From a virus, in IMG/VR virus record IMGVR_UViG_3300032242_002237, positions 1 to 52,437 of that record: 52,437 nt of DNA. One strand, 5' to 3'. Shown here in pieces: positions 5,072-44,964 of this stretch. A program made the position numbers and the translations under genes. How positions within the stretch are numbered: the stretch's first letter is position 1; each line of letters starts with the position of its first letter. The notes beneath the pieces are model-generated. The model did not search any database. It was not told the origin of the DNA and saw nothing but the letters and a program-made list of their open reading frames with translations.

Positions 5072-5458
5072 ATGGCGTATTCAAACAAAGTAATAGATCA
5101 TTATGAGAACCCACGCAATGTGGGTTCCTTTGCCAAAGAAGAATCTGGCATTGGAACCGGCATGGTGGGCGCCCCTGCTTGTGGCGACGTCATGAAACTA
5201 CAGATAAAGGTTGTAAATGGGATCATCCAAGACGCAAAATTCAAAACATACGGATGTGGAAGTGCAATCGCAAGCTCAAGCCTTGTCACTGAGTGGGTCA
5301 AAGGAAAAACGCTTGACCAGGCACGAGAGATTTCTAATTCATCAATTGCTGAAGAACTTGCCCTTCCACCGGTTAAAATACATTGTTCAATACTTGCAGA
5401 AGATGCTATCAAAGCCGCAATAGAGGATTATAGAAAAAACAATGATCACAGTGAGTGA
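5072..5458 (+). CDS. iscU: Fe-S cluster assembly scaffold IscU
   Basis: 128 residues, full length for IscU. Ligands are present: C37 with D39 (ACGD), C62 (GCGSA) and H104-C105. The LPPVK motif (98-102) is the HscA-chaperone recognition site of bacterial IscU. The protein builds [2Fe-2S] clusters in the cytoplasm from sulfur supplied by host IscS. It starts behind a perfect sigma70 promoter with an AAGGAG ribosome site, and overlaps iscA by 17 bases. A phage copy could support Fe-S or iron enzymes in infection; the class I ribonucleotide reductase nearby uses a di-iron site, so a direct link is only a guess. Confidence 0.95.
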
Positions 5459-22766: not shown

Positions 22767-23118
22767 CAATTTTGTCACGCCACCGGATTTTGTCAAGGAC
22801 GAATTCCACACAGTACTGTTGATTGACCTTGACTGGGTGCATGTGGATGAGCTGGCCATATGGTGCAAGACTGCACCTGTGAACCTGAACATCTATATCT
22901 ATCAAGACATCATGCTCAATGAAGCCTGGCTGGCTGACGCCATCAACCGAAGCAACACGATAATCATGAACACAGACAGCAGTGCTGTGGATCACATAAA
23001 GAATCAATTGATCAAAGCATCAAATGTATGGTACTATGGTGACAAGAAGTTTCTTGGCAACCAACAAAAAATCGACAACCCACTGGATTGGTTCGTGAGG
23101 ACATATGGCCACGGATGA
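22753..23118 (+). CDS. Conserved phage protein, Rossmann-like
   Basis: 121 residues. Alternating strands and helices (FHTVLLIDLDW, LNIYIYQDIML, NTIIMNTDSS, SNVWYYGDKKF) suggest a small Rossmann-like domain. It overlaps the upstream gene by 14 bases and clpX by 14 bases, so it is co-translated with clpX. Function unknown. Confidence 0.65.
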   Translation: MQHYSNFVTPPDFVKDEFHTVLLIDLDWVHVDELAIWCKTAPVNLNIYIYQDIMLNEAWLADAINRSNTIIMNTDSSAVDHIKNQLIKASNVWYYGDKKFLGNQQKIDNPLDWFVRTYGHG

Positions 23119-24310
23119 ACAAGCACAAGTAAGACACATGAGTTGCGACTTCTGTGGCAAGGCACGAGCAGAAGTTACCAAGTTGATTGTGGCCAATGAC
23201 GCCGCTATCTGCAACGAGTGTATAGACCTTTGTCATGATATATTGGAAAAAGAACGCATAGACTTGATCAAGACTGATCGCAAGATTGGTCGGCTGTTGA
23301 ATCCAGTCAAGGTCAAGCAGTTCATGGACCAGTACGTGATTGGACAGGAAGACGCCAAGCGAGCCTTGGCAGTGGCAGTGGTCAACCACTACAAACGAGT
23401 GCATTTCAAAAGCAAGATAGAGATGGAGAAAAGCAATCTCTTGATGTTTGGGCCCACTGGATCCGGCAAGACCCTGTTGGCCAAGACAGTGGCCAGATAT
23501 CTCAATGTGCCGTTTGTGATCGCTGATGCCACCACACTCACACAGGCTGGCTATGTTGGCGAGGATGCTGACAGCTTGATCAGCCGACTGCTGAGTGAAG
23601 CCGACAACGACGTGGAAAAATGCCAGACTGGCATTGTGTTCATTGACGAAATAGACAAGATAGGTCGCAAGAGCGAAAGTGCCAGCCTCACACGTGACGT
23701 TTCCGGTGAAGGTGTACAACAGGCCCTGCTCAAGCTGGTAGAAGGCACCACGGTGAGAGTCAGCGCAGTGGGATCCAAGAAAGAATACGTGGAAGTAGAC
23801 ACCACCAACATATTGTTCATTGCTGGTGGCGCATTTGACGGCCTGGACAAGATCATAGAAGGTCGCAAGCAAGGCAACTCCATTGGCTTTACCAGCAGGC
23901 CCAGCGAAGTCAACACAGTGGATCATGCCATACCCAAAGACTTCATGAAGTATGGAATGATTCCAGAATTTGTTGGACGTTTTCCTATCTCTGTGAGACT
24001 GGATCCACCATCCATCGAAACCATGGTCAGGATCTTGGTCGAGCCCAAGAACAGCATGCTGGCCCAGCAACAGTTTTATTTCATGGCAGATGGTATTGCC
24101 TTGGAATTTGAAGATGCTGCCGTGCTGTGCATAGCACAGCAGGCCCTGGATCTGGGCATTGGAGCACGTGGGCTCAAGACAGTGATAGACGACATAATGA
24201 TGCCCATCATGTATGGCATTCCGGATCTCAAGAAAGAAGACGTCAAAGAATTGGTCATAACAGAAGGAATGATAACTAACAATAAAGCAAAGGAGACACA
24301 TGCGATTTAA
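23105..24310 (+). CDS. clpX: ATP-dependent unfoldase ClpX
   Basis: 401 residues, near full length. It has the N-terminal C4 zinc finger (C14, C17, C36, C39), Walker A GPTGSGKT (116-123), pore loop GYVG (150-153), Walker B IDEIDK (181-186) and an IGF loop (261-263), which in ClpX docks on ClpP. It unfolds substrates with ATP and feeds them to ClpP in the cytoplasm. This window also has clpP (44344) and clpS (25423). It could redirect host proteolysis or process phage proteins; that is inference. Confidence 0.95.
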
Positions 24311-24900: not shown

Positions 24901-25365
24901 ATGACACCATCACAAATCCAAACCATTCAGTTTGACCTACCTGCACTGCATCGCCACTTTGTGGGATTCGACAACATCTTTGAAGAGATCAATCGAACCT
25001 TCCACCAGGCCAAGCAGGACAACTACCCTCCACACAACATCATCCGCACTGCCGAAAATCGTTTCACGATTGAACTGGCCGTAGCTGGCTTTGATCAAAG
25101 TGAGCTGGACGTGGAAGTTGCGTCAAACGAATACAACCAACAGGTCCTTACCATTTCAGGCAAGCGCAACCGAGACGAAGATCAGACCAGAGAATATCTG
25201 CACCGTGGTCTTGCCGCTCGTAATTTTGAGCGCAGTTTCACGCTACAGAATCATGTGGAGATCACAAACGTGGCCGTGGAAAACGGAATCATGAGCGTGA
25301 ATCTCGAGCAGAGGATTCCTGAGAGTTTGAAACCTAAAAAGGTTGCAATTACTTTCAAGAAGTAA
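24901..25365 (+). CDS. Small heat-shock protein (Hsp20)
   Basis: 154 residues. The alpha-crystallin domain spans about 40-135, with the conserved RFTIELAVAGFDQSELDVEV and a NGIMSVNLEQRIPE end (normally A-x-x-x-n-G-v-L), plus the C-terminal extension PKKVAI. It holds unfolding proteins in an ATP-independent way. Hsp20 genes are common in marine T4-like phages, where an assembly-chaperone role is suspected. It has its own late promoter and is followed by a perfect 12-bp hairpin. Confidence 0.95.
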   Translation: MTPSQIQTIQFDLPALHRHFVGFDNIFEEINRTFHQAKQDNYPPHNIIRTAENRFTIELAVAGFDQSELDVEVASNEYNQQVLTISGKRNRDEDQTREYLHRGLAARNFERSFTLQNHVEITNVAVENGIMSVNLEQRIPESLKPKKVAITFKK

Positions 25366-25422: not shown

Positions 25423-25749
25423 ATGTCCGACGATACAATCATCAAGCCAAAAGTGGAACACAGTCTGAAACTAGATCCCAAGCTCAACATTCCTGAACCC
25501 AAGATGTTCAAGGTGATCTTTGTCAACGATGAAGTGACCACCATGGAGTTCATTGTGGAATGTCTCAAAGCCATCTTTCGCTATGAGGAAGAAGAAGCAC
25601 ATGCCAAGACCATGCAAATCCACGAAGAAGGAACTGGGGTGGTAGCTGTGTTGCCATTTGAAATTGCTGAACAGAAAGGCATCGAAGCCACTGTGCTGGC
25701 ACGTAACAATGGCTTTCCTTTGCAAATCAAACTTGAACTGGACAACTGA
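25423..25749 (+). CDS. clpS: ClpS-like adaptor protein
   Basis: 108 residues. FKVIFVNDEVTTMEFIVECL holds the ClpS pocket residues N35, D36 and M41, and H67 lies in the expected HEEGTGVV strand. ClpS binds N-terminal Leu/Phe/Tyr/Trp (N-end rule) and hands substrates to ClpAP. No clpA is present here, so it would work with host ClpA, or block it. The presence of clpX and clpP in the same genome makes a phage-directed proteolysis route plausible. Confidence 0.9.
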   Translation: MSDDTIIKPKVEHSLKLDPKLNIPEPKMFKVIFVNDEVTTMEFIVECLKAIFRYEEEEAHAKTMQIHEEGTGVVAVLPFEIAEQKGIEATVLARNNGFPLQIKLELDN

Positions 25750-26303: not shown

Positions 26304-26545
26304 CACCTATCACTGAAAACCAATTGATATTGGAAAAACTAGACGCACTCACACACATGGTAGACAATCTCAGCGGTCGTGTCAGTGCGCTGGATACCAA
26401 GCTCATGTTCCTACAGCAGGATGTTGATACCATCAAGGAAGACACCGTGGTGATCGAAGAAACCTTGGTAGATGGCATCAAAGGCATCATCAAGATCATT
26501 CCACAGCCTGAGCAGAAAAACACCTGGGTCAAGGAACAACTATGA
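26300..26545 (+). CDS. Small coiled-coil protein
   Basis: 81 residues, mostly one heptad-patterned helix (about 5-65, EKLDALTHMVDNLSGRVSALDTKLMFLQQDVDTIK). It is joined by ATGA overlaps to the exonuclease before and the next gene after. Probably oligomeric; role unknown. Confidence 0.65.
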   Translation: MTPITENQLILEKLDALTHMVDNLSGRVSALDTKLMFLQQDVDTIKEDTVVIEETLVDGIKGIIKIIPQPEQKNTWVKEQL

Positions 26546-26874
26546 ACATAGTATTTGGTGACGATGTAGCAGAAGAACTGCGCAAGAAATACACCTTGCT
26601 TGAAGTTGACACAGTACAGCATCCTGAGCATGGCCTGGTCAGTGCTTGGGTGGTTTTGCCCATGGAATCCATTGCCATGGAAATGGCCAGCCTGGATCAA
26701 AATGTCATGCAACATGCCATGTTGATTGAATCACTCAAGAAAGACGATACCAGCACAGTACGGCTGATGTGCCAGGCACTGACTGGCAAGTTTGGTGGAG
26801 AGATGGACACTTTCTATGAAGAAATCACCAAACGCATTGATAACACTGGTTCTACACTGTTATCTAATTCTTAG
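26542..26874 (+). CDS. Conserved small hypothetical protein
   Basis: 110 residues, mixed alpha/beta N-terminus (NIVFGDDVAEELRKKYTLLEVDTV) and helical C-terminus with Met-rich stretch (MESIAMEMASLDQNVMQHAML). Coupled to the coiled-coil gene by ATGA overlap. Last gene before the csgF control hairpin. Function unknown. Confidence 0.65.
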   Translation: MNIVFGDDVAEELRKKYTLLEVDTVQHPEHGLVSAWVVLPMESIAMEMASLDQNVMQHAMLIESLKKDDTSTVRLMCQALTGKFGGEMDTFYEEITKRIDNTGSTLLSNS

Positions 26875-26886
26875 CAGTTAAAAAAT

Positions 26887-26924
26887 TCCCATTTCTCCTT
26901 AAGTATAGTTAAGGAGTAGTGGGA
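26887..26924 (+). promoter_or_regulatory. Hairpin that buries the csgF ribosome site
   Basis: TCCCATTTCTCCTTAA (26887-26902) pairs with TTAAGGAGTAGTGGGA (26909-26924) over a GTATAG loop: 15 of 16 positions pair, one as U-G. The paired 3' arm contains the AAGGAG Shine-Dalgarno (26911-26916) and the first base of the ATG. Translation of csgF, and so perhaps the whole curli-like operon, should need this stem to open. The 12-mer TAAGTATAGTTA within it also occurs at 12665-12676. Confidence 0.75.
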
Positions 26925-27373
26925 TGATAAAAAAAATAACAACCCTGATAGTTTTCGCTGCCGCGGTGGTACCTGCATCTGCGGCTCCTCTTGGCGATTA
27001 CCAGTTCAAAAGCCCCAGTTTCAATGGTGCAGGCTATTCCAGCCATGTGTTGTCCATCGAAAGCACAGAAATGGCACGTGCCAAGGCCATACAAGATGCT
27101 TTCACTGCCGCACAGCAGGCTGAGGCCAACAAGGCCGCCAACTTGCCTATAAACCAATTCTTGGTAAACCTTGAGTCACGAATATATGCGCAGATTTCTC
27201 AGAATCTGGCCACTGCCATGTTTGCTGGTGGCAACAACACATCCGGCACCATTGACTTCCAAGGCAATACCATCAACTGGATCAACCAAGGCAACAACAT
27301 AAAGTTGACCATATTTGATCCCAACAACAGCCAAACCATTATCAACGTACCCATACTAGGGGTGCCACACTAA
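26924..27373 (+). CDS. csgF: Curli assembly factor CsgF-like, secreted
   Basis: 149 residues. Signal peptide about 1-20 (VPASA|APLG). The mature start LGDYQFKSPSFNGAGYSSHVL matches the CsgF N-terminus (E. coli FQFRNPNFGG), the part that inserts into the CsgG channel and narrows it. C-terminal beta-rich section (GNTINWINQGNNIKLTIFDPNNSQT) also fits CsgF. It lies directly before csgG, one base apart. CsgF couples secretion to fibre nucleation at the cell surface. Confidence 0.88.
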   Translation: MIKKITTLIVFAAAVVPASAAPLGDYQFKSPSFNGAGYSSHVLSIESTEMARAKAIQDAFTAAQQAEANKAANLPINQFLVNLESRIYAQISQNLATAMFAGGNNTSGTIDFQGNTINWINQGNNIKLTIFDPNNSQTIINVPILGVPH

Positions 27374-27374
27374 C

Positions 27375-28538
27375 ATGAACAAGCTCTTACTCACTGTCAT
27401 GCTGACTGCCTTGCTGGGAGGTTGTGCATCCATGCAAAACTTCTCCGAACCCACACGTCCGGAAGTCAGCAAGAATACCATGCAAAATGATTTTGATGCC
27501 TTGCCTTCACCTGCGACCGGAAGACCAATTGTAGTAGCAGTTTATAGCTTTGTTGACAAGACCGGACAGCGCAAGCCCATTGCCAATGTGGCCAGCTTGA
27601 GCACAGCCACCACACAGGGTGCTGAAGCATTCTTGATCAAGGCCCTGCAGGATGTGGGCAATGGTCGTTGGTTCCGTGTGGTAGAGCGTGTGGGCATTGA
27701 CAACTTGACCAAGGAACGCTTGATCATCCGCCAGATGCGTGAGGCCTATGAAGGACCCAACGCACAGCCACTGCCGCCCATGACATTTGCCGGCATCATA
27801 TTGGAAGGCGGCATCGTGGGCTACGACAGCTCGACCAAGTCAGGCGGAGCGGCAGCTCGTTGGCTGGGCATTGGCGAACAAACACAATACAGTGAAGACA
27901 CTGTGACCATCAGCCTACGTGCAGTGAGCGTGGCCAATGGTGAAGTGATTGCCGCTGTGACTGTGCAGAAGACCGTGGTCAGTTCTGCGGATTCTGTCAC
28001 AGCATTGAAATTCTTCAGCGACGGAACCAAAGCATTTGAAGCTGAAGCAGGATTGACCTTGAACGAGCCAGTTACCTTGGCTACCAAAGCAGCCGTGGAG
28101 TTTGCTGTGGTAGAACTGATCAAGGAAGGCAAGCGCAAAGGCGTGTGGGATTACGCCCGTCCGGTGTCAAGTATGACACAACCTCCAGTGGCTCCTCCAG
28201 CAGACAAAGCACCAGCCAAGCCTGTAGAAAAAATGGCCGAGCCAGTGAAACCCGTAGAGGACAAAAAAGTTGAAGCAACAAGCACACCTGTTAAAGAAGA
28301 TGAATCCATAAAAGAGGGGCAGGCTGTAGTCAAAGCCGCCAGTGCTTGGGTTAGAAAGGGTCGTAGTTTAGTTGACCCTCCAGTGCGAAGCGTCCGTGAA
28401 GGATTGCAGGTTACCGTGCTTCAAAATCAAGATGGCTGGAGCGAAGTGGAGTTTGACGACAGCTTCGGACATCACAAAGGCTGGATTAAATCAAATTTAT
28501 TAAAACAACAAGAGGCTACAAAGCCCGAAGGAAAATAA
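27375..28538 (+). CDS. csgG: Curli secretion channel CsgG with C-terminal SH3-like domain
   Basis: 387 residues. Lipoprotein signal ending in L-G-G-C17. The CsgG domain (about 45-265) has IVVAVYSFVDKTGQRKP, the RWFRVVERVGIDNLTKERLIIRQ helix and the VTISLRAVSVANGEV strands. Nine CsgG subunits form an outer-membrane pore that secretes curlin. Unusual extension: a Pro/Lys/Glu linker (about 268-310) and an SH3b-type domain (about 320-380, VRKGRSLVDPPVRSVREGLQVTVLQNQDGWSEVEF...GWIKSNLL), typical for binding cell-wall peptides. E. coli CsgG lacks it (about 277 residues). Confidence 0.93.
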   Translation: MNKLLLTVMLTALLGGCASMQNFSEPTRPEVSKNTMQNDFDALPSPATGRPIVVAVYSFVDKTGQRKPIANVASLSTATTQGAEAFLIKALQDVGNGRWFRVVERVGIDNLTKERLIIRQMREAYEGPNAQPLPPMTFAGIILEGGIVGYDSSTKSGGAAARWLGIGEQTQYSEDTVTISLRAVSVANGEVIAAVTVQKTVVSSADSVTALKFFSDGTKAFEAEAGLTLNEPVTLATKAAVEFAVVELIKEGKRKGVWDYARPVSSMTQPPVAPPADKAPAKPVEKMAEPVKPVEDKKVEATSTPVKEDESIKEGQAVVKAASAWVRKGRSLVDPPVRSVREGLQVTVLQNQDGWSEVEFDDSFGHHKGWIKSNLLKQQEATKPEGK

Positions 28539-28541
28539 ATC

Positions 28542-29324
28542 ATGAAATATAAGTTCTTAGCGACACTGATTTTGGCGCTGGGGATTACTAATGCAGTTCA
28601 AGCAGGTGATAACGCGATATCTATCGACCAAGTTGGTAATCAGAGCACAATAAACGTAACACAGACAGGAACTAGCAATACTGTCCAAGGCCTGGGCGCC
28701 TCTTTGGGCATACCCGCGGCAAAGATCTACGGCGACAATACCACGGTCAACCTGACCCAGACTGGATCGGGCAACACCTTGTTTCTTGGAGCAGACGCAG
28801 GCGGAACTGGATCTACCAACAGCATCACCTATAACATGACAGGTAGCAACAACCAAGCCAGCGTCAGCTGTAATGACAATGGCACTGGCAAGTGTAACAA
28901 CAACACTGTGAACATCCAACAAACTGGTGATACCAACAATACACTGTTGAACATCAATGGACAGAACAATGGTATTGCTTACACACAGCAAGGCGGTAAC
29001 ACCAACAACTACACTGGTACGTTTACTGGGGACAACATAACCTCCGTCACAAACATACAGGGTGGTAACAATGCAGTGAGCATCAGCAGTTCACCACTGG
29101 CTGGCATTGCCGCACAGACCAAGGTAGACATAGTGGGTGCAGGCAACACAGTTGGTATCACACAGACCGGTGGATCAATTGCAGGCAACTATGCCAGCCT
29201 TTCCTTGAATGGTGTGGGCAATGGCGTGAGTGTTTCGCAGACTGGTACCGCGGCTGATAACGTGCTAAGGGTGACCAGCCAAGGCAACAACAATGTGATG
29301 CGTTTCAACCAAACGAGTAGGTAA
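28542..29324 (+). CDS. Curlin-repeat (CsgA/B-like) secreted protein
   Basis: 260 residues. Signal peptide about 1-22 (AVQA|GDN). The rest is built from curlin-type repeats with Q-x-G-x-x-N-x(5)-Q spacing: DQVGNQSTINVTQTG, LTQTGSGNTLFLG, IQQTGDTNNTLL, ITQTGGS, SQGNNNVMRFNQ. These predict amyloid-like beta-solenoid folding and export through CsgG. It is longer than E. coli CsgA and less regular. It ends in an ATGA-like overlap with the FecR gene. Confidence 0.88.
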   Translation: MKYKFLATLILALGITNAVQAGDNAISIDQVGNQSTINVTQTGTSNTVQGLGASLGIPAAKIYGDNTTVNLTQTGSGNTLFLGADAGGTGSTNSITYNMTGSNNQASVSCNDNGTGKCNNNTVNIQQTGDTNNTLLNINGQNNGIAYTQQGGNTNNYTGTFTGDNITSVTNIQGGNNAVSISSSPLAGIAAQTKVDIVGAGNTVGITQTGGSIAGNYASLSLNGVGNGVSVSQTGTAADNVLRVTSQGNNNVMRFNQTSR

Positions 29325-30448
29325 TGAAAAGTTGGGCATTCATACTGTTTGCCGCGTTGATGTACCCATACTGCGCACAGGCCGCAGTGGGTACTATCAC
29401 GGAACAGGTGAATGCTCCTCCAAGCATACAGCGTGACAAACAGACTCTGACAGGAGCCAAGGGCTCGGGTGTAGAAATGAATGATGCTGTGCGCACCACT
29501 GGTGGCAAAGTGGGCATCACGTTCGAAGACAATACCCGAGTACAAGTTACCGAAAACTCCAAAGTGGTCATTGATGAGTTTGTGTATGATCCCAAGAAAG
29601 GATCAGGCAAACTGTCCATCAACATGGCCATGGGCACTGTGCGCTATGCATCAGGTGCCATTGCACACAACAACCCCAGCAATGTTGCCATCAACACACC
29701 CACTGCTACCATTTCAGTGCGAGGCACTGATTTTACCGGTACAGTGGATGAGTTGGGATCCAGCACCTTCATCCTGTTGCCCAGCTGTCCCAATGACAAC
29801 AAGATACGCATGCCTGGCGATGACGTGACCAACTGCAAGGTGGGAGAAATCGTAGTGTCCACTGACCAAGGTGTTGTGATATTGAACCAGGCCTGGCAGG
29901 CCACTGTGGTCACTTCTCGCAACCAACCCCCCAGTCCACCCAAGCTGGTACACCTGGGACTGGATCACATCAACAACTGGTTGATAGTGAGTCCGCCACC
30001 TGAGCTGAGACAGGAAGGCATGAATGACAGATCAGTGCGCCGTCCATATGATTTTCTCAATCAACATTTCCTAGGACCTGTTGCAGAAATAGGCAATGTG
30101 CTGGAACAGCAACAGGCACAGTTTTTCAGAAACAGCCTGCAGAAGAATTCGCTGGAGCAGAGTTTCTTGGCCAATCAATTTGAAGTCATGGGCAATGCAC
30201 TGAGTGAAAACCTGCTGGACAACAAGCACAGCATACTGCCAGACTATCGCAAGTCGTCGGGTGTGGAAGTGGTAATGGATTCCACTGCTGTGCAACTGTG
30301 CTTGAAAGACGCTGCCGGCAACAACCAGTGTGTGCAAACACCCAAGGATCAAAATTCTCAGCTGATACAGTCGCAGGGAAACGTTACCATCAAGAATCGC
30401 GTGAACCAAGGCGGCAATACCAACATCACACTGAAGCAAAGCAACTGA
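29324..30448 (+). CDS. Secreted FecR-domain protein with curlin-like C-terminus
   Basis: 374 residues. Signal peptide about 1-19 (YCAQA|AVG). FecR domain about 45-150 (RTTGGKVGITFEDNTRVQVTENSKVVIDEFVYDP...GTVRYASG...VAINTPTATISVRGTDF). The middle is helical (about 230-310). The last ~25 residues (VTIKNRVNQGGNTNITLKQSN) look like a curlin repeat. FecR-fold proteins are extracytoplasmic sensors or scaffolds; the curlin-like end suggests it joins, or is exported with, the fibre. Same operon as csgG. Confidence 0.85.
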   Translation: MKSWAFILFAALMYPYCAQAAVGTITEQVNAPPSIQRDKQTLTGAKGSGVEMNDAVRTTGGKVGITFEDNTRVQVTENSKVVIDEFVYDPKKGSGKLSINMAMGTVRYASGAIAHNNPSNVAINTPTATISVRGTDFTGTVDELGSSTFILLPSCPNDNKIRMPGDDVTNCKVGEIVVSTDQGVVILNQAWQATVVTSRNQPPSPPKLVHLGLDHINNWLIVSPPPELRQEGMNDRSVRRPYDFLNQHFLGPVAEIGNVLEQQQAQFFRNSLQKNSLEQSFLANQFEVMGNALSENLLDNKHSILPDYRKSSGVEVVMDSTAVQLCLKDAAGNNQCVQTPKDQNSQLIQSQGNVTIKNRVNQGGNTNITLKQSN

Positions 30449-30449
30449 T

Positions 30450-32693
30450 ATGAAAAGATTACTAGCCGCGGCTTTATTACTGATAGGAACAGTGACCACT
30501 GCCTGGAGCCAGGCTGCTCCTGCACCCTACGACATGATCGCCACTGCCTATGTTACCACGACCATAAGCCAGATCGTGGTACTGGATTCAGCTCAGCAGG
30601 CCGCTGGCAATCTCACATTTTCAATACAGGCACACAACGGCGGTGGCCGTCCAGGCCAAGCAGACACTGCAAAAGTACAACTGCAATTCTACAACTCCAG
30701 CAACAGTTTGTTGTACACTGCCAACAGCCAAACCTATTCACTGCCTTTGCCCAATGGCGTGGGCCAACCGGGCATTGATCCCACAGTGCCTTGGACCACC
30801 ATGACCGTGAGTTCAGCCAACTGCGGAGGATCCTGTGCCAACGTGGCCTATGTCAAGGTCATTGCCAGTGGCACTGACGGCAGTTATTGGGCAGGTGACT
30901 ATGGCCCTTGGTACATGGCTCCTTCACTGACGGTGAACGGTGGCGCCAACATACTTTACAATCCTGAATTTGGTCCTTACAACAACGTGAGTGCGCATGG
31001 TTGGTCAATCAGTCCTGCGCTGGGTGCTTGCCAAGGTGCCTGGGGCGGATCAAATCCTTGTATTGCCAACAGTTCAGGTCAGGCAGGACAAAACACCACA
31101 GGCCTGATAGCCAATGCCAATGGTGGCGGTCCTGTGGCCACGGGTGGTACCACTGCCGCACCTGCAGGTGGTACTGCGCAATCAGCACCCAAACCTCCAG
31201 CACCCAATTTCACACAGCTGAAGTTCAGTGCCGCACAGGTAGCAGACAGCCAATGGGATGTGTATGCCTGTACACAGACCAACACTTGCCAAATCTACAG
31301 TACCAACCCAGGAACTGCTTATCAGATTCCTTGGACTTCGGGACAATGGAACTGGCAGTCTGGGCAGTATATCCAATTCTCAGCCACAGGTGATGCCAAC
31401 AATCCATACGAAGCAAAAGTCTACAACAGTGATGGCACACTGGCAGGCACACTGGGCACTGGACACATAGTGAGCATGGGCACAGATAGCAGTGGTCATG
31501 CACTGTTTTTCTTTGTGGGCAACGACAACGACACAGGACAGTTGTTCAGTACCAACTATGGTTTTTCAGGCAATGGTGGCTATACCTGGACCGGCACATT
31601 GAATCCCACAACTGCGCAGGTTGACACATTCGCTGGCTCAGGATCCACCACACCATTGGCCGCAGGTCAGACAGGTGGTACTGCCACAGCGCCCACCGTG
31701 ACCAGTACCACAATAACCAACACCACCAGCATAACCAACAGCTATCCAGCCAGCTGGACTGATTCAGTTCCGACCATAAACATTGGCCCAGGCCCTGGAC
31801 AAAGCATCATAACCAGCACTGATACCACGCTGATAACATCACAACCAGTTATCACTACCACGACCACCACACCAACCATCACCACAAACTACAGTGATGG
31901 CACCAGCAAGACCAGCACTGGCACACCAACTTCTACCACATCCACTTCTACCACATACTCTTCCTCTCTGCAGGTCAATCCGCGCCCCTACATCACAAAC
32001 TATGGCTTGGCCAATCAGGTGTACATGGACCAGATAGGCAGCAACAACACAGTGGATGTGACACAGACTGGCAGGGACAACAACATAGCCGGAGTCAATC
32101 AGCCCAATGCACAGGTGCGTGGCAACAGCAATTCAGTCACTGTGACACAAGGTGGCAGTGGTGGCTTGCCCAACTCTGTGGATCTGTTTGTGCAAGGCAC
32201 TGGCAACACAGTGAGACTGGTGCAGGGAATCAACGCCAATGACACCAGCACCAGTGGACAATACAACAGCACCAGCATCACTGGCAACAACAATCAAGTG
32301 ATCAGCAAGCAGAGCAATGATGGCGGGCTGGGCATGCACTATTCAGCTACCACAGTCACCGGCGACAGCAACACAGTCAACACAGGACAGTACAACAATG
32401 GCGGCAAGTCCATGACCACCACCATCAACGGCAACAACAACACACTCAATGCCAGCCAGACTGGCACTGGACAGCACTCGCTCAGCACCACCATGACCGG
32501 ATATGGCAACAGTGCCACAGTGTCACAGTCCGGCAGCTACGCAGCCTCAGCGTCGATCACGTTGAACAATGCTGGCGGATCCAGTTCAGCCACAGTGATA
32601 CAAAATGCCAACTCAGCACCCACTGCCTACAGCATATATCAATCCTGCTCCAATCCAGCAGGCTGCGGTGTCAGCATCACACAAAATAAATGA
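30450..32693 (+). CDS. Large secreted protein with C-terminal curlin repeats
   Basis: 747 residues. Signal peptide about 1-21 (AWSQ|AAPAP). N-terminal beta-rich adhesin-like regions (about 25-200 and 245-400), a Thr/Ser-rich linker (about 410-510), then curlin-type repeats to the end (YMDQIGSNNTVDVTQTGRDNN, VRGNSNSVTVTQGG, GTGNTVRLVQG, NGNNNTLNASQTGTG, GYGNSATVSQSG). It may place an adhesive or receptor domain on a curlin fibre. No enzyme motif is seen. It starts one base after the FecR gene stop. Confidence 0.85.
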   Translation: MKRLLAAALLLIGTVTTAWSQAAPAPYDMIATAYVTTTISQIVVLDSAQQAAGNLTFSIQAHNGGGRPGQADTAKVQLQFYNSSNSLLYTANSQTYSLPLPNGVGQPGIDPTVPWTTMTVSSANCGGSCANVAYVKVIASGTDGSYWAGDYGPWYMAPSLTVNGGANILYNPEFGPYNNVSAHGWSISPALGACQGAWGGSNPCIANSSGQAGQNTTGLIANANGGGPVATGGTTAAPAGGTAQSAPKPPAPNFTQLKFSAAQVADSQWDVYACTQTNTCQIYSTNPGTAYQIPWTSGQWNWQSGQYIQFSATGDANNPYEAKVYNSDGTLAGTLGTGHIVSMGTDSSGHALFFFVGNDNDTGQLFSTNYGFSGNGGYTWTGTLNPTTAQVDTFAGSGSTTPLAAGQTGGTATAPTVTSTTITNTTSITNSYPASWTDSVPTINIGPGPGQSIITSTDTTLITSQPVITTTTTTPTITTNYSDGTSKTSTGTPTSTTSTSTTYSSSLQVNPRPYITNYGLANQVYMDQIGSNNTVDVTQTGRDNNIAGVNQPNAQVRGNSNSVTVTQGGSGGLPNSVDLFVQGTGNTVRLVQGINANDTSTSGQYNSTSITGNNNQVISKQSNDGGLGMHYSATTVTGDSNTVNTGQYNNGGKSMTTTINGNNNTLNASQTGTGQHSLSTTMTGYGNSATVSQSGSYAASASITLNNAGGSSSATVIQNANSAPTAYSIYQSCSNPAGCGVSITQNK

Positions 32694-32694
32694 C

Positions 32695-32814
32695 ATGAAC
32701 CATTGGCAGACCCTGATACTTGATGAGTGGTACTATGTGCCCATCACCCTGTTGGCAGGACTCTGGGCATTTGGCATTGGCCTTTTGATTGGTTGGCTGA
32801 TCACAGTATTATAA
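32695..32814 (+). CDS. 39-residue single-span membrane protein
   Basis: Short ORF one base after the preceding stop: MNHWQTLILDEWYYVPITLLAGLWAFGIGLLIGWLITVL. Acidic/aromatic N-terminus followed by a long hydrophobic segment with Gly spacing. Placed between the curlin genes and the cyclase. A small membrane modulator or holin-like peptide is possible. Confidence 0.55.
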   Translation: MNHWQTLILDEWYYVPITLLAGLWAFGIGLLIGWLITVL

Positions 32815-32819
32815 ATACT
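32810..32819 (+). promoter_or_regulatory. T4-type late promoter TATAAATACT, leaderless arrangement
   Basis: An exact TATAAATA (32810-32817) is followed by four bases (CTGG) and the cyclase ATG at 32822. No ribosome site is present, so the cyclase mRNA is probably leaderless when made from here. It can also be read through from the curli-like operon. Confidence 0.6.
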
Positions 32820-32821
32820 GG

Positions 32822-34861
32822 ATGAAAAAGATACTCACCAGCCCATGGACGGCACTCATCACTCTTGCACTGATTGTAGGCGTAAGGATCGCAGATCCTT
32901 CATTTGTGGAAAGCGTACGACTGCGCTATTTTGACACATTGATCTCCAGTCGAGCACCAACTGAAAACAACATAGTCACTGTAAACATCGACGAAGCCGG
33001 ACTGGACAAGTACGGACAATGGCCGTTGCCAAGGAGTGAGTATGCCAAAATTATTAAAGACCTGTATGATCGTCATGCTGGCCTTGTCGTGCTTAATGTT
33101 ATCATGGCTGACAGCGATCGCACTGGTGGTGATGGCGCTCTCGCAAATGCACTGAAACAGTACCCCACTGTGCTGGTCAATGTGCCCACAGACAAAAACA
33201 AAAACACTCCTCGCAATCCTGGTGCAGTGATCCTGGGGCCAGAGTGGATGGATCGAATAGTGAACTATCCAGGCGTGATGGCCAACGTGCCGGTGTTGGA
33301 GAATGCTGCCGCTGGCGTGGGCACCGTACACACCATGCCTGAGATAGACGGTGTGAATCGTCGCATGCCCTTGATCGTTGCCAGTGGCGAGCACCTGTAC
33401 CCCAGCCTTAGCATGGAAGTGCTACGATTGGCCGCAGGTGACGAAGCTTTCCAAGTCAAGTTGAACGAATGGGGCGTGGAAAAGATGCGCATTCCAAAGT
33501 TTGGTCCTATCTCAACTGATGAGCTGGGCCGTGTTTGGATCGACTGGTCACAAAAGTCACACGCTTATAGTATCACCAACTTGCCTGCTGACTTCGGCGG
33601 AGCAGTAGTCCTTGTGGGTCCTACTGCGGCAGGTATCAGTAATCCACTGCCTACCTCGATTGGTGCAGTGTATCCCAATGAAGCACAGGCCGCTGTGATG
33701 GGTACCATGTTCAACAATGTGAACATACAGCGTCCAGACTGGGCCGACGGTGCTGAGATCATTGGACTGCTGGTAGCAGGATTATTGTTACTATTTTTAA
33801 CAAGGTGGACTTATGCGGGACTTGCGTCGGTCATTGTATTGGTTGTTGGCGGCATTGTTGGTAGTCAGTATGCTTTCACTAACTTTTTATTCTTATTTGA
33901 TGCTACTGCCTTTGCAGTTGGCACAGTCTTGGTCGCTTTGCATGCCTACGGTGTCAAGTTTGTTTCAGAGTTCCTCCAAAAGCAAGCCATAAAGAAACAG
34001 TTTGCTGGCTACTGCTCTAAGGAAGTTGTAGAGCTATTACAAAAAGATCCAGATTTGATCAAGCGTGGTGTGCGCAAAGACGTATCAGTCATGTTCTCAG
34101 ATCTGCGTGGATTTACTCCTATTGGCGAACACTTTGGAGACGACGTTGCTGGACTGGGCCGGTACATGAATGGTTACATGGATGCCATCAGCCAGCCCAT
34201 GTTGGACAACCGTGGCATGGTCATCAAGTATGTGGGTGATGCGAGTATGCACATACACGGTGCTCCTATCGAAGACCCAAACCATGCTAGAACAATCGTT
34301 GCAGTTGGTTTAGAAATGCTGGATGCAGTGGATGAGTATACCAAGATCATGGAAGCACAAGGCTTACCACCAGCCGCAATGGGTTGGGGTTGCAACTCAG
34401 GCATTGGCTTTATTGGCGAAATGGGTTCAACAGAACGACACAGCTATGATATCTTAGGTGACATGGTTTCAACTGCGGCACGACTAGAAGCACGTTGCAA
34501 GGCCTATGGTGTGTTGTGTATCATTGGTGCAGAGACCTACAACAGAACCAAAGACGACTTCTTCTATCTAATGCTAGATAACCTACAACCCAAAGGTAAA
34601 ACTGTAGCCGACTTGATCTACACAGCACTACGCACACGCGGTGTTGATTACTCAAAAGATAAGGCACAGCACGAAGCGATGCACGATTTATACAGAGCTA
34701 AAAAGTTTGACGAAGCTGCCGCTATGTGTGCCAAGCTCAAGGGCAATTTTGGTGGGCAAATGGACAAGTACTACAAGATCTGGATTGAGCGTTGCGACTT
34801 CATGAAGCAACAGGATCTGGGCGACAACTGGAACGGTGAGTTCGTAGCTCACGAAAAATGA
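32822..34861 (+). CDS. CHASE2-domain class III adenylate cyclase
   Basis: 679 residues. N-terminal membrane helix (about 9-22), CHASE2 sensor (about 28-310, RLRYFDTLISSRAPTENNIVTVNIDEAGLDKYGQWPLPRSEYAKII), three helices (about 318-385), then the cyclase domain (about 415-600). Metal-binding D427 (FSDLRGF) and D473 (KYVGD) are present. K469 and D543 (SYDILGD) are the residues that select ATP over GTP, so cAMP is the predicted product. Codon choice becomes A/T-richer after about 33780. A CHASE2 cyclase next to a FecR gene is an arrangement I recall from bacterial genomes. Effect on the host is unknown. Confidence 0.92.
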   Translation: MKKILTSPWTALITLALIVGVRIADPSFVESVRLRYFDTLISSRAPTENNIVTVNIDEAGLDKYGQWPLPRSEYAKIIKDLYDRHAGLVVLNVIMADSDRTGGDGALANALKQYPTVLVNVPTDKNKNTPRNPGAVILGPEWMDRIVNYPGVMANVPVLENAAAGVGTVHTMPEIDGVNRRMPLIVASGEHLYPSLSMEVLRLAAGDEAFQVKLNEWGVEKMRIPKFGPISTDELGRVWIDWSQKSHAYSITNLPADFGGAVVLVGPTAAGISNPLPTSIGAVYPNEAQAAVMGTMFNNVNIQRPDWADGAEIIGLLVAGLLLLFLTRWTYAGLASVIVLVVGGIVGSQYAFTNFLFLFDATAFAVGTVLVALHAYGVKFVSEFLQKQAIKKQFAGYCSKEVVELLQKDPDLIKRGVRKDVSVMFSDLRGFTPIGEHFGDDVAGLGRYMNGYMDAISQPMLDNRGMVIKYVGDASMHIHGAPIEDPNHARTIVAVGLEMLDAVDEYTKIMEAQGLPPAAMGWGCNSGIGFIGEMGSTERHSYDILGDMVSTAARLEARCKAYGVLCIIGAETYNRTKDDFFYLMLDNLQPKGKTVADLIYTALRTRGVDYSKDKAQHEAMHDLYRAKKFDEAAAMCAKLKGNFGGQMDKYYKIWIERCDFMKQQDLGDNWNGEFVAHEK

Positions 34862-34952: not shown

Positions 34953-35339
34953 TTAAGAGCTGCCGCCGGCAGCTTCTTTCTTGTCACTTGGATCAACAGG
35001 CGCAGTGACTTTGCCACTGACCTTGTCTGCTTCGTCTATAGCATCATGGAACTTCTTGTTGGCCTGTGCTTCAACCAAGGCAGTTTCCATAACACGGTCT
35101 GATTCAATCATCTTGCCACGTATGGTCAACACTGTGTTGACCTTTTGGTTCAGACGGATCAAGTCATTGTCCAGCATACGGATGCGATCGATCAATGCAA
35201 TCAACACAGTGTTGGCATCTGAGATCACAGGCTTGACTTCCTTGGTACACCATTCCCACACATACTTGATGATGTAGCCCATGCCCACTGCCATCACAAT
35301 GGGAAAGCCGTATTTGTTAACTAGTTCGACCATGTCCAT
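34953..35339 (-). CDS. Holin-like (BhlA-type layout) membrane protein
   Basis: 128 residues. One N-terminal membrane segment (about 8-28, KYGFPIVMAVGMGYIIKYVWEW) followed by a heptad helix (about 45-75, LIALIDRIRMLDNDLIRLNQKVNTVL) and a charged tail. This is the layout of BhlA/UviB-type holin-like proteins. The gene at 36876-37157 encodes a related protein with the same order of motifs. The ATG follows TAAATA by exactly four bases (35342-35351 on the minus strand), so the mRNA is predicted leaderless. Confidence 0.6.
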   Translation of the reverse strand: MDMVELVNKYGFPIVMAVGMGYIIKYVWEWCTKEVKPVISDANTVLIALIDRIRMLDNDLIRLNQKVNTVLTIRGKMIESDRVMETALVEAQANKKFHDAIDEADKVSGKVTAPVDPSDKKEAAGGSS

Positions 35340-35341
35340 AT

Positions 35342-35351
35342 TGTATTTACC
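35342..35351 (-). promoter_or_regulatory. Late-like promoter GGTAAATACA (minus strand), leaderless arrangement
   Basis: On the minus strand TAAATA (35349-35344) is followed by CAAT and the ATG at 35339. The spacing is identical to plus-strand sites at 2327, 20723 and 32812. Confidence 0.55.
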
Positions 35352-36120
35352 TTCCTACGTATACCTTGGGTTCAGCTTCAGCTCTGCGCCGCTCTTCACT
35401 TTTGGGCAACAGGTCTTTGCCATATTGCGGATACTTCTGCTGGCGATCATATGCCACCCACATGAACACACCACCCATGGTGAATATGATCACGATCACT
35501 GCAATGCCTATTATAAATTCATCTCTCAGGCGTCTCATCCTGGCGGCGCGGCGGCGATCTGCCACTGCTTGTCTTTGCATCTGTAGGGTGATAAGAACTT
35601 TTTGTTCTGCCCCTATTTTTTTCATCATGATATTTACATCAGTCCATAGAGCACCCAGCTCTGGGGGACTTTGGTAAATCATTATTTCTTGTAATTCTGT
35701 GCCCATGGCTTCCAACTGCTTGCGCATGAGCACACGCTGTAAGGCACGTTTGCCTAGGCTGTCATCACCAGTATAAACTTGTGTTTTGCTACGTTTTTCT
35801 TCTTCTTCAAATACTGCCAGGCATTTGTAAAAGTTATCAAAATACACACCAAGTTGGTTGCCTATTTCTGTGTAGATATCAGTAGTTTCTGTACTACGCT
35901 TGTTTAATTCTTTGACCCGAGCTTTTTCTTCAGCAAGTTGTTTACGTGCTTCAGGAGGAACAGGCTTGCCCTCATACAACTTGTGGAACTGCTGGTCAAG
36001 GTCTTTGACTATGTCTTTGACCTCACCAGCGGCACCTTTAATGTCCTTATAGAGTTTGCAGCCGGCCTTGACTGCACTCACGGCTCCGTTGGCTAATGCA
36101 AATAGCGTTAACGGATCCAT
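35347..36120 (-). CDS. Coiled-coil protein with C-terminal membrane anchor
   Basis: 257 residues. Helical throughout with charged heptads (about 20-110 and 125-200) and one hydrophobic segment (about 208-230, FIIGIAVIVIIFTMGGVFMWVAY) followed by a basic tail. A GGAGAG ribosome site precedes the ATG. Its 3' end overlaps the late-like element of the next gene. Function unknown; it sits in a group of membrane proteins. Confidence 0.65.
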   Translation of the reverse strand: MDPLTLFALANGAVSAVKAGCKLYKDIKGAAGEVKDIVKDLDQQFHKLYEGKPVPPEARKQLAEEKARVKELNKRSTETTDIYTEIGNQLGVYFDNFYKCLAVFEEEEKRSKTQVYTGDDSLGKRALQRVLMRKQLEAMGTELQEIMIYQSPPELGALWTDVNIMMKKIGAEQKVLITLQMQRQAVADRRRAARMRRLRDEFIIGIAVIVIIFTMGGVFMWVAYDRQQKYPQYGKDLLPKSEERRRAEAEPKVYVGR

Positions 36121-36132
36121 GCCACTCTCCTA

Positions 36133-36717
36133 TTAGAACCACAGGAACAAACCGTTTAGACTCAATAACAATCCAAACCCTGCTACTGCAAAGCTAGCCC
36201 AGAACAAATACATGCTCACAGCCAGGATAGAAGCTGATAGCACAACAATGGCCATTTGGTATGCAGTTGACGCATAACCAATCCATGGGCTACGTTGTTT
36301 AGCATCATCACGTTCTGCTTCCAGTGCCTTGGCTTTCTTCATTAGGTCTTGCTTGCCTTCGCCTGGCTCATTTTCATAACGATCAATCTTGGCTGCCATT
36401 TCTTCTGCACGAGCCCGGTCGCCATTGTGTTGTGCTTCGTACAAGTTTTGTTCTGCTAGACTTTGCTTGATACTCTTGGCTTGGTAGAAACTGTAGGTGT
36501 CATTGGCTTTGATGGTGTTGTTCAACACGGTCGAACCTAACTTACCACCATACCAGGCATTGACTGCTAGACACAGGGCAAACACATTGATGACCATGCC
36601 TGCTTTGTCTTTGATCTTTGCTTCACGTTCGCTACGTGAGCCAACTGGCGGCTTGGGTGTGCTTTCGTCTTTTGGTTGTTTGTTAACCAAGTTTAATACT
36701 GAATCGATTAGTGCCAT
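36133..36717 (-). CDS. DUF4337-like membrane protein
   Basis: 194 residues. A first membrane segment (about 42-60), then NNTIKANDTYSFYQAKSIKQSLAEQNL, which resembles the DUF4337 core, a charged helix (about 95-140) and two C-terminal membrane segments (about 150-190). DUF4337 proteins are uncharacterised bacterial membrane proteins. The GAGGAG ribosome site lies right before the ATG and overlaps the stop of the gene upstream. Its codon choice is more A/T-rich than the main genome, suggesting later acquisition. Confidence 0.7.
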   Translation of the reverse strand: MALIDSVLNLVNKQPKDESTPKPPVGSRSEREAKIKDKAGMVINVFALCLAVNAWYGGKLGSTVLNNTIKANDTYSFYQAKSIKQSLAEQNLYEAQHNGDRARAEEMAAKIDRYENEPGEGKQDLMKKAKALEAERDDAKQRSPWIGYASTAYQMAIVVLSASILAVSMYLFWASFAVAGFGLLLSLNGLFLWF

Positions 36718-36726
36718 GTATACTCC

Positions 36727-36876
36727 TCAAAATGTAATTGCACCTAGTACAAAACCAATCACCAATCCAATGGCCAAGGCTTTGTATAAATCACTGTCAT
36801 GCCAAAGCGGCTGTGCTCTGAGATATTCCTGTGTGTGTTTTGGTAGACTGTCCCACCATGCTTGATATTTGTTCAT
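36727..36876 (-). CDS. 49-residue membrane protein
   Basis: Small ORF between two larger minus-strand genes: MNKYQAWWDSLPKHTQEYL... then a C-terminal hydrophobic segment (LYKALAIGLVIGFVLGAITF). Its ATG overlaps the stop of the upstream gene (TGATG at 36878-36874), which strongly supports translation. Function unknown. Confidence 0.65.
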   Translation of the reverse strand: MNKYQAWWDSLPKHTQEYLRAQPLWHDSDLYKALAIGLVIGFVLGAITF

Positions 36877-37157
36877 CAATCTCTCCGGGCATCATTCTTG
36901 CCGTCTGCACGGCTGATACGATCAACGTCGGGTCGCAGGCCCAAGGCATTGCTCACGATGGTGTCAATGCGTATCACATCATGGTTCATGGTCTTCACAC
37001 GATTGTCCAAGGCCGTGATAATGCCAGCCATGCCTTTGATGCTGCCAAGCACACCGCCCAGTAAAAGTTTTATGGTAAGATACACAAAGTAACCACCGGC
37101 AAATGCCATAGCCACCGGAAACCCAAGGTCACCTATTAGTTTGAAGATGTCACCCAT
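36876..37157 (-). CDS. Holin-like membrane protein, related to the 34953 gene product
   Basis: 93 residues. ATG at 37157 is preferred over GTG at 37160 because AAGGAG lies five bases before it. Layout: membrane segment (about 5-35, LIGDLGFPVAMAFAGGYFVYLTIKLLL) and heptad helix (ALDNRVKTMNHDVIRIDTIVSNALG). Shared order with the 34953 product (GFP-x-x-M-A, then R-x-x-x-x-x-x-D-x-I-R). First gene of the minus-strand membrane-protein island. Confidence 0.6.
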   Translation of the reverse strand: MGDIFKLIGDLGFPVAMAFAGGYFVYLTIKLLLGGVLGSIKGMAGIITALDNRVKTMNHDVIRIDTIVSNALGLRPDVDRISRADGKNDARRD

Positions 37158-37185
37158 CACAGCTCCTTGTTGATATTATTCTAGT

Positions 37186-39283: not shown

Positions 39284-39418
39284 ATGACTAGCGTCTTCGA
39301 GTTTGTTTTAGTAAGTATCATTGGTCTGGGCATGCTCCTGGGCATGATACTTTTCTTCAGCAAGCTCTTGGATATTTTCTTTGAATCCGATGACCCTTGG
39401 AAAAACAATGACAGATAA
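39284..39418 (+). CDS. 44-residue membrane protein
   Basis: Short ORF: MTSVFEFVLVSIIGLGMLLGMILFFSKLLDIFFESDDPWKNNDR. One membrane segment (about 5-33) and an acidic tail. It sits directly behind a sigma70 promoter and overlaps the UV-endonuclease start by 11 bases. Function unknown. Confidence 0.6.
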   Translation: MTSVFEFVLVSIIGLGMLLGMILFFSKLLDIFFESDDPWKNNDR

Positions 39419-40445
39419 ACGAATCGGCTTTTGTTGCAAATGGCTCAATGACCCATCCGAATGTGGCGGCATGAAAGTAAATGCTGTGGATCGCGAGCTA
39501 AACGGACGCTCAACTACCATGCGCTGGTTGCGTGAACATGCAGACGAAGCTGAACAGCGCCAGTGGGACATCATGAATCACAATGCCATAGCCGCGGTCA
39601 AGATGATTGAGCGTGTGGCTACCTTGGAACCCGAACGACGCATGGTACGCCTGGGTAGCGAAATGCTACAGGGCTACACAGAACCGTCGTGGATTGACTG
39701 GTGGCAACGCCCAGAAATCCAAGCGCACTGTGAAAAGATCTTTGCACCCATTGGTGAAACTGCTCGACGCTTGGGTGTGCGACTATCGTTCCATCCTGGC
39801 CAGTTCTGTGTGCTGGCGTCAGAGTCAGACGAGATTGTGGAGCGCAGTATCTTAGAATTTGAATATCACGTTGATATGGCGCGGTGGATGGGCTACGGCG
39901 CCACATGGCATGACCATGGTTTCAAGATCAACGTGCATTTGTCTGGTAAAGGTGGATCAGACAAGTTCCTACGAACCCTGGGCAAGCTCACGCCCGAGGC
40001 CAGGAATCTAATAACCATCGAAAACGATGAGATGACAAATGGACTGGACTGTACTCTTGCTGTTGGTGAACATGTGGCTCTTGTTCTCGACATTCACCAT
40101 CATTGGATCAACTCGAATGGCGAATATATCTTGGCCACGGATGATCGCGTTCGTAGGGTTGTTGACAGTTGGCGTGGTACTCGTCCTGTTCTGCACTATT
40201 CTGTTAGTAGGGAAGATATTCTTGTGGGTCATTGCCCCGGAACTAGGCCCGATCTTGCGGGACTTGTTGCTGGAGGTCATAAGAAACAAAAGCTTCGAGC
40301 ACACAGTGATTTTTACTGGAACGAGCCTGTCACAGACTGGGCTTTGACTTTCCTAGACAACTTTGACATACAGTGCGAGAGCAAGGGCAAGAACTTGGCC
40401 AGTGGTCAAGTTTACAATCGAGCCAAGACCCTACAGCTGGTATAA
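39408..40445 (+). CDS. uvsE: UV-damage endonuclease (UvsE/UvdE family)
   Basis: 345 residues from ATG 39408. It follows the UvdE TIM-barrel order: IGFCCKWLN, the TTMRWLREH...EQRQWDIMNHN segment, VRLGSEM, RLSFHPGQFCVLAS, TIENDEM, LALDIHHHWIN-like VALVLDIHHHWIN and LRAHSDFYWN. The conserved Glu/His/Asp set binds two or three metal ions and nicks DNA 5' of UV photoproducts. An aquatic phage exposed to sunlight would benefit. A terminator follows immediately. Confidence 0.93.
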   Translation: MTDKRIGFCCKWLNDPSECGGMKVNAVDRELNGRSTTMRWLREHADEAEQRQWDIMNHNAIAAVKMIERVATLEPERRMVRLGSEMLQGYTEPSWIDWWQRPEIQAHCEKIFAPIGETARRLGVRLSFHPGQFCVLASESDEIVERSILEFEYHVDMARWMGYGATWHDHGFKINVHLSGKGGSDKFLRTLGKLTPEARNLITIENDEMTNGLDCTLAVGEHVALVLDIHHHWINSNGEYILATDDRVRRVVDSWRGTRPVLHYSVSREDILVGHCPGTRPDLAGLVAGGHKKQKLRAHSDFYWNEPVTDWALTFLDNFDIQCESKGKNLASGQVYNRAKTLQLV

Positions 40446-44343: not shown

Positions 44344-44964
44344 ATGCCACAATTCGTACCTACCGTACTAGAAAAAACTTCCAATGGCGAACGTGCCTAT
44401 GACATCTACAGTCGCTTGCTCAAGGACCGTATCGTCATGCTGGACACAGAAGTAAACCAAAACTCAGCCAGCCTTACTGTGGCACAGATGCTGTTTTTGG
44501 AAAGCGAGAATCCTGAAGCGGATATCCTTTTCTACATCAACAGCCCAGGTGGTTCAGTCACAGCAGGCTTGGCCATTTACGATACCATGCAGTTTATCAA
44601 ATGCGACGTTTCAACCATTGTGTTGGGACAGGCCTGTTCCATGGGCAGTTTCCTAGCACAGGCAGGCACGCCGGGCAAGCGCATCGTGTTGCCAGAGTCA
44701 CGCACAATGATCCATCGTGTGAGTTCGGGCACCCCAGGCACCAGTGGTTCAGTCCATGTGCAGGAACTGGAATTTGAGGATGCAAAACGCACCTTTGAAG
44801 AAAGCATGCGCATCAACAAACGCCTGACAGAACTGTATGTCAAGCACAATACCGCAGGCAAGACCTATGATGAACTGTATCAGGCCATGAAGTTTGACAC
44901 ATTCCTGTCAGCCGAAGAAGCAGTGGCGTATGGGCTTGCAGATCGTGTGAGCGAAAAACGGTAA
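44344..44964 (+). CDS. clpP: ATP-dependent Clp protease proteolytic subunit ClpP
   Basis: 206 residues, full length. Catalytic triad S99 (GQACSMGSF), H124 (MIHRV) and D185 ([10 protein letters not shown]) are in place. The usual H-Q-P after the catalytic His is replaced by H-R-V-S-S-G. Forms the 14-mer protease barrel fed by ClpX or ClpA. A strong host-type promoter suggests early expression, away from clpX at 23105. The phage may build its own ClpXP or mixed complexes with host subunits. Confidence 0.95.

Follow-up and report, generated by a model that had tools for sequence, protein, structure and literature searches.

The curli-type gene island considered here lies on a virus record of IMG/VR (IMGVR_UViG_3300032242_002237), the whole 52,437 bases of which form the window of this analysis. 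Six open reading frames (ORFs), all on the + strand, run head to tail from 26924 to 34861 with intergenic gaps of 1, 3, -1, 1 and 128 bp, and encode in order CsgF, CsgG, a first curlin, a FecR-domain protein, a second curlin and a CHASE2 adenylate/guanylate cyclase. We hold with moderate confidence, a grading that excludes any benefit to the phage, that this phage type VIII (curli-type) secretion island builds an exported, anchored and adhesin-headed fibre on the infected cell. A phage-borne curli-type secretion and fibre set is already known as such; the details that are new here, namely the curlin-type end of the FecR-domain protein, the heads of the second curlin, an SH3b-like domain on CsgG, the association with two small genes (h1 and h2), similar operons in Caulobacteraceae and a bacterial pairing of FecR with CHASE2 cyclases, give the fibre reading more substance. 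The purpose of curli genes in phages has been an open question ever since they were noticed in SAR11 phages, with published guesses extending from sibling capture to a lysis pore, and it is the modular lectin-type heads together with the curlin-tailed FecR protein that render the fibre reading more specific and testable.

The ORFs and Pfam matches confirm the tightly spaced, single-strand six-gene operon of the original prediction, in which the pore and the exported repeat proteins are encoded together. Its further idea, that the order csgF-csgG-curlin-FecR-curlin-cyclase could be looked for in viral relatives, is borne out by a wide distribution, with a CsgG relative encoded in 151 of 156 candidate viral stretches. 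Among 89 distinct viral csgG loci, 57 present the complete series of six on a single strand in this order, three more keep the order with the last cyclase on the opposite strand, four have no detected second curlin and the remainder show part of the order. Apart from an extra cyclase-like match upstream of csgF in 14 of the 89 loci, which in L093 and L105 amounts to only about 117 residues, no alternative gene order was seen. Since the order is kept over 89 distinct viral loci, the six-gene arrangement is not due to chance. The original prediction went too far in regarding the full set with FecR and cyclase as unreported, because the same six genes, identically ordered, occur in HTVC008M, a SAR11 phage (KC465899), and in Melnitz, an OM43 phage (MZ577097). 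A partial operon was reported by Zaragoza-Solas 2020 (PMC7029224), the Melnitz operon by Buchholz et al. 2022 (PMC9004378), and the full set by Wittmers et al. 2022 (PMC9599517), who described it, FecR and adenylate cyclase included, in podo- and myophages and put forward three hypotheses: sibling capture, superinfection defence and import. A collection of 50,697 phage records yielded relatives of both FecR and CsgG in HTVC008M and four Melnitz strains, with CsgG alone on one short record; the latter, OR851715.1, is an unannotated sequence of 1,499 bases named Salmonella phage S.Kent 1-2-1, whose CsgG (298-945) is 43% identical to that of the window and which may be host DNA. The island also lies on many viral contigs that are distinct from the SAR11 and OM43 phages already described. 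Compared with the type VIII islands of HTVC008M and Melnitz, which also have h2 and h1 nearby, the window shows about 43% identity in CsgG and FecR, an SH3b extension on CsgG that is absent from both, a second curlin of 747 residues with large lectin-type heads (441 in HTVC008M and 341 in Melnitz), and h1 and h2 placed downstream on the other strand.

The first three genes provide the pore and the likely main subunit of the proposed amyloid-type fibre. CsgF (26924-27373), the predicted exported partner of the pore, is recognized by Pfam CsgF (expectation value, E, 3e-13) and phrog_35372 (E 6e-40) and begins with a hydrophobic stretch. CsgG (27375-28538; Pfam CsgG E 9e-50), the outer-membrane lipoprotein pore, matches the solved CsgG of the PDB over residues 4-262 (E 4e-48), and its lipobox Cys17 is invariant across 47 relatives. 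The protein is 387 residues long; the pore domain is followed by a linker rich in proline, glutamate and lysine and then by the SH3b-like domain (residues 326-376), for which the SH3_3 match in the window falls below the Pfam cut-off (E 9e-4) while SH3_4 is found in 19 and SH3_3 in 16 of the 47 relatives. That this domain might bind peptidoglycan is a guess by analogy with what SH3b domains often do. The loss of the pore-constriction residues of E. coli CsgG was considered as a phage trait and rejected, alphaproteobacterial CsgG copies differing there as well. The first curlin (28542-29324) matches Pfam Curlin_rpt below the cut-off (E 0.04), and we take it for a curlin-repeat protein on account of its conserved place in 89 loci and its nine strand-Q-turn-strand units, where 500 shuffles gave 2.0 on average and never more than six. 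The proteins proposed as exported have signal-peptide-like N-termini, so that the two curlin-repeat proteins with signal peptides of the original prediction hold, the second by Pfam and the first by repeat count and place. The operon shares the CsgG pore, CsgF and curlin-repeat subunits with E. coli curli (csgBAC/csgDEFG); unlike the latter it has FecR and a cyclase, presenting a curlin-tailed FecR protein where E. coli would have CsgB. The description of the set as complete is apt for the pore plus its substrates but not for CsgE, CsgC and CsgD, none of which was seen among the ten island and flank proteins scanned with Pfam. The lack of a detected CsgE gate among these proteins would suit a role that Zaragoza-Solas 2020 and Wittmers et al. 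2022 raised, in which an ungated CsgG pore admits larger molecules (nutrients or macromolecules) to the periplasm during infection. We consider such uptake very unlikely as the purpose of the island, and it does not account for CsgF, the curlins, the lectin heads or the curlin-tailed FecR protein.

The FecR-domain protein (29324-30448; Pfam FecR E 5e-11) opens with a signal-peptide-like segment (about 20 residues); the FecR domain occupies about 23-150, and the C-terminal module is rich in beta structure. There is no cytoplasmic anti-sigma N-terminus with a transmembrane helix after it, the FecR domain following directly on the signal-peptide-like start. In the structure model (mean predicted local distance difference test score, pLDDT, 80; C-terminal blocks about 79-91), for which, as for the other models, two rows from named phage records were left out of the alignment, the last strand (GGNTxITxxQ) resembles the half that closes a curlin repeat, and a glutamine close to the C-terminus is invariant in 28 diverse phage copies. 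A C-terminal motif, [IVLMF]x[ILVFTA]xQ, stands at the end of 81 of the 83 FecR proteins from phages, of 16 of the 950 other ORFs in those loci and of none of 66 bacterial FecR proteins, and is present in both copies from the Caulobacteraceae contigs described below. As this motif was written after the phage proteins had been viewed, it is the contrast with the bacterial FecR proteins that constitutes the fair test. The fold search matched the cell-surface signalling domain of PupR (E 2e-4) and, with E 0.01 and a TM-score by target of 0.73, 5ix9, a 'cell surface anchoring domain'. On the strength of the curlin-type end, found in 81/83 phage against 0/66 bacterial proteins, the sequence suggests that the FecR-domain protein probably serves as an anchor or a minor subunit of the fibre, in the manner of CsgB, and not as an iron regulator, which calls the 'iron regulator' label into question.

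The second curlin (30450-32693), the proposed adhesive subunit, matches Pfam Curlin_rpt above the cut-off (E 5e-5), although over the whole protein the crude strand-Q-turn-strand pattern does not exceed shuffles. Its model comprises beta-sandwich heads (about 35-161 and 250-410), a disordered linker and a constant curlin domain with strands at 520-746. Among 50 relatives, Pfam identifies PA14 in 14, GLEYA in nine and F5/8C in five. When these Pfam head types and two further types from the window protein were used as probes on the 83 distinct proteins encoded right after FecR, ten head-bearing arrangements appeared, with the heads preceding the curlin domain wherever both were detected; 18 of the 83 match no probe. 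The best PDB folds for the window protein are the sugar-binding Fbs1/Fbs2 domains, and the best viral folds are 'PA14' and 'Curlin associated' proteins of uncultured phages, from which it follows that members of this family are already in public databases. Judged by sequence and model, the second curlin has a constant curlin tail, in front of which stand interchangeable lectin-type heads that vary between phages. Such variable, sugar-binding-type heads could bind the surface glycans of the host itself, and Wittmers et al. 2022 proposed a superinfection defence, whereby the same fibre would serve mainly to hide receptors of the cell that bears it or to catch arriving virions, and not to hold other cells. 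The heads could equally bind neighbours or particles and the data do not separate shield from adhesion; we rate a predominantly shielding role as unlikely.

The last gene of the operon (32822-34861) encodes an inner-membrane cyclase with a CHASE2 domain (Pfam CHASE2 E 8e-40; Guanylate_cyc E 3e-13) and transmembrane-like segments. All 79 phage copies keep the metal, Lys, Asp and Arg sites unchanged, while the position of the transition-state Asn of class III cyclases is occupied by Ser in 48 of them, including Ser550 of the window, and by Asn in 31; the 23 bacterial copies all have Asn there. Bacteria also pair FecR with a CHASE2 cyclase in the absence of curli: in bacterial loci without curli a FecR gene lies within 2.5 kb of the CHASE2 cyclase in 27 of 75 cases, and among the 75 loci examined none with this pair carries csgF or csgG. 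Apart from lacking these genes, the bacterial pairs differ from the phage island in the FecR proteins themselves, which have no curlin-like C-terminus (0/66). The BiofilmReg operon, with a LysM-FecR protein and a CHASE2 histidine kinase (PMC5192318), likewise encodes an exported FecR-domain protein beside a CHASE2 sensor, and CHASE2 cyclases of S. meliloti respond to an extracellular protein via an outer-membrane beta-barrel (PMC13001267).

The conserved island extends to about 37160 and takes in two small genes on the - strand, h1 (34953-35339; phrog_18771 E 4e-29), coding for a small protein with one transmembrane segment and a coiled-coil-like region, and its paralogue h2 (36876-37160; phrog_18771 E 4e-30), whose product likewise has one transmembrane segment. 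The shared PHROG is of unknown function. Relatives of h1 occur in 92 loci, curli-island genes accompany h2 in all 38 IMG/VR loci with full flanks, and within the phage collection relatives of either are found only in curli phages. The place of such relatives is close to the island, either upstream and on its own strand, as in HTVC008M, Melnitz and others, or downstream and on the opposite one. Between the two, 35347-36717 (- strand) encodes a 257-residue protein without known family and a DUF4337 membrane protein, relatives of which are near the island in several other loci. This constant company, and weak PHROG holin matches in five of 21 members (best E 4.5e-5), would fit a lysis device as proposed for Melnitz (PMC9004378), in which CsgG and CsgF form a late, gated outer-membrane pore that helps to trigger or time lysis, with h1 and h2 as holin-like partners in the inner membrane and the fibre genes secondary. 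Neither protein has a Pfam holin match, no endolysin adjoins the island, the window's two endolysin-like genes being located away from it, and the retention of two curlins, the variable lectin heads, FecR and the cyclase would be left unexplained; we regard a lysis device as improbable. The histidine kinase described ahead of csgF by Wittmers et al. 2022 has no counterpart in the window, where no kinase match was obtained and 26542-26874 is without a family match. As h2 and h1 are among the genes near or upstream of csgF in HTVC008M and Melnitz and do not match a kinase either, the published label may be doubtful and might refer to these genes; in phage MW574966 no curli is annotated in the 45 kb shown, and the equation with h1 and h2 stays a guess.

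For the fibre, the following course may be envisaged. Host Sec would export CsgF, CsgG, both curlins and the FecR-domain protein; CsgG would insert in the outer membrane with CsgF at its mouth, the SH3b domain perhaps tethering CsgG to peptidoglycan, and the first curlin would polymerise outside the cell. The FecR-domain protein could nucleate and anchor the fibre in place of CsgB, its folded domain being held at the pore or in the periplasm while the curlin-like C-terminus joins the fibre, and the second curlin would contribute a variable sugar-binding head. The inner-membrane cyclase might sense the state of FecR or the pore and signal through cyclic AMP (cAMP). The likely pay-off would be that the infected cell adheres to neighbouring cells or particles, or masks its own receptors; if true, the phage would re-decorate the host surface with a chosen adhesive ahead of lysis. 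A more elaborate version, to which we give only tentative credence, is a rewired curli machine where the retained FecR anchor nucleates the fibre by way of its curlin-like C-terminus and, being sensed by the CHASE2 cyclase, signals through cAMP whether pore and fibre are in place, swappable lectin heads choose the sticking target, and the phage-specific h1 and h2 couple the system to the infection cycle. The expression of pelagiphage curli genes in metatranscriptomes (PMC9599517) counts in favour of the fibre. Several points weigh against it: Melnitz-infected cells did not clump under the conditions used (Buchholz et al. 2022; PMC9004378); CsgE was not found among the ten proteins scanned; 34 of the 83 proteins after FecR show a curlin part alone to the probes used; carbohydrate-binding module folds match the second curlin more weakly (E 0.007 and up); the FecR fold matches are weak (TM-score by query 0.3 or less), and its C-terminal feature is a short motif in a modest model; and the change from Asn to Ser at 550 may lower cyclase activity.

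With regard to origin, five ordinary alphaproteobacterial curli operons are without FecR and cyclase of the phage-island type. Two Caulobacteraceae contigs from metagenome-assembled genomes (MAGs; L139 and L140, 54-57% guanine-cytosine (GC) content) carry csgF-csgG-curlin-curlin-FecR-CHASE2 cyclase among metabolic-looking neighbours, resembling the island in gene set and in the curlin-like C-terminus of FecR and differing in having both curlins ahead of FecR, no h1 or h2 and bacterial-looking surroundings. Full-length FecR of the island type is present in two of 299 Caulobacteraceae genomes, namely the two that prompted that search, and in no further genome among 385 of the class. The MAG copies stand beside all phage copies in the cyclase tree and are weakly nested among phages in that of CsgG, where phage monophyly is not rejected (approximately unbiased test, p-AU 0.18); which way transfer between phage and Caulobacteraceae went cannot be read from the trees. 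These two contigs lend some support to the view that the window is bacterial or chimeric and its operon non-viral, the host island that the original prediction had named as a possible refutation. The pore is encoded by 151 candidate viral stretches, cultured phages carry the set, phage genes surround the operon in the window, and in both trees the window copies sit among viral contigs, outside the HTVC008M/Melnitz clade. A host island is therefore strongly disfavoured and in our estimation extremely improbable. Three further contigs binned in Rhodobacteraceae and Pirellulales MAGs (L136, L137 and L138) have the island with h1/h2; given their low GC content (36-37%) and phage-type neighbours, they look like phage contigs in bacterial bins.

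The phage-type genome of the original prediction is upheld by the source, a virus record, and by the neighbours of the operon, among them ribonucleotide reductase, tailspike, virion-protein and endolysin genes. Of 16 large curli contigs tested for the first gene of the window, two have a relative (E about 1e-95), and since these two are also the ones with a T4 portal (E 1e-105), the window is likely to derive from a large T4-like phage; no portal gene was found in the window itself, where the search was non-exhaustive. One copy of the T4 late-promoter motif TATAAATA ends four bases ahead of the cyclase start, but as a clue to timing the motif was dropped, because across 94 loci it is rarely near csgF (eight) or the cyclase (two). 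Sigma-70 promoter-like sites are not in excess of shuffles. A 39-residue transmembrane peptide between the second curlin and the cyclase (32695-32814) was set aside, having no relative in other loci. Elsewhere the window encodes a proteolysis and chaperone set (23105-24310, 24901-25365, 25423-25749 and 44344-44964) of a ClpX-like ATPase with zinc finger, Hsp20, ClpS and ClpP, together with an IscU/NifU-like scaffold protein (5072-5458) and a UvdE-type UV endonuclease (39381-40445).

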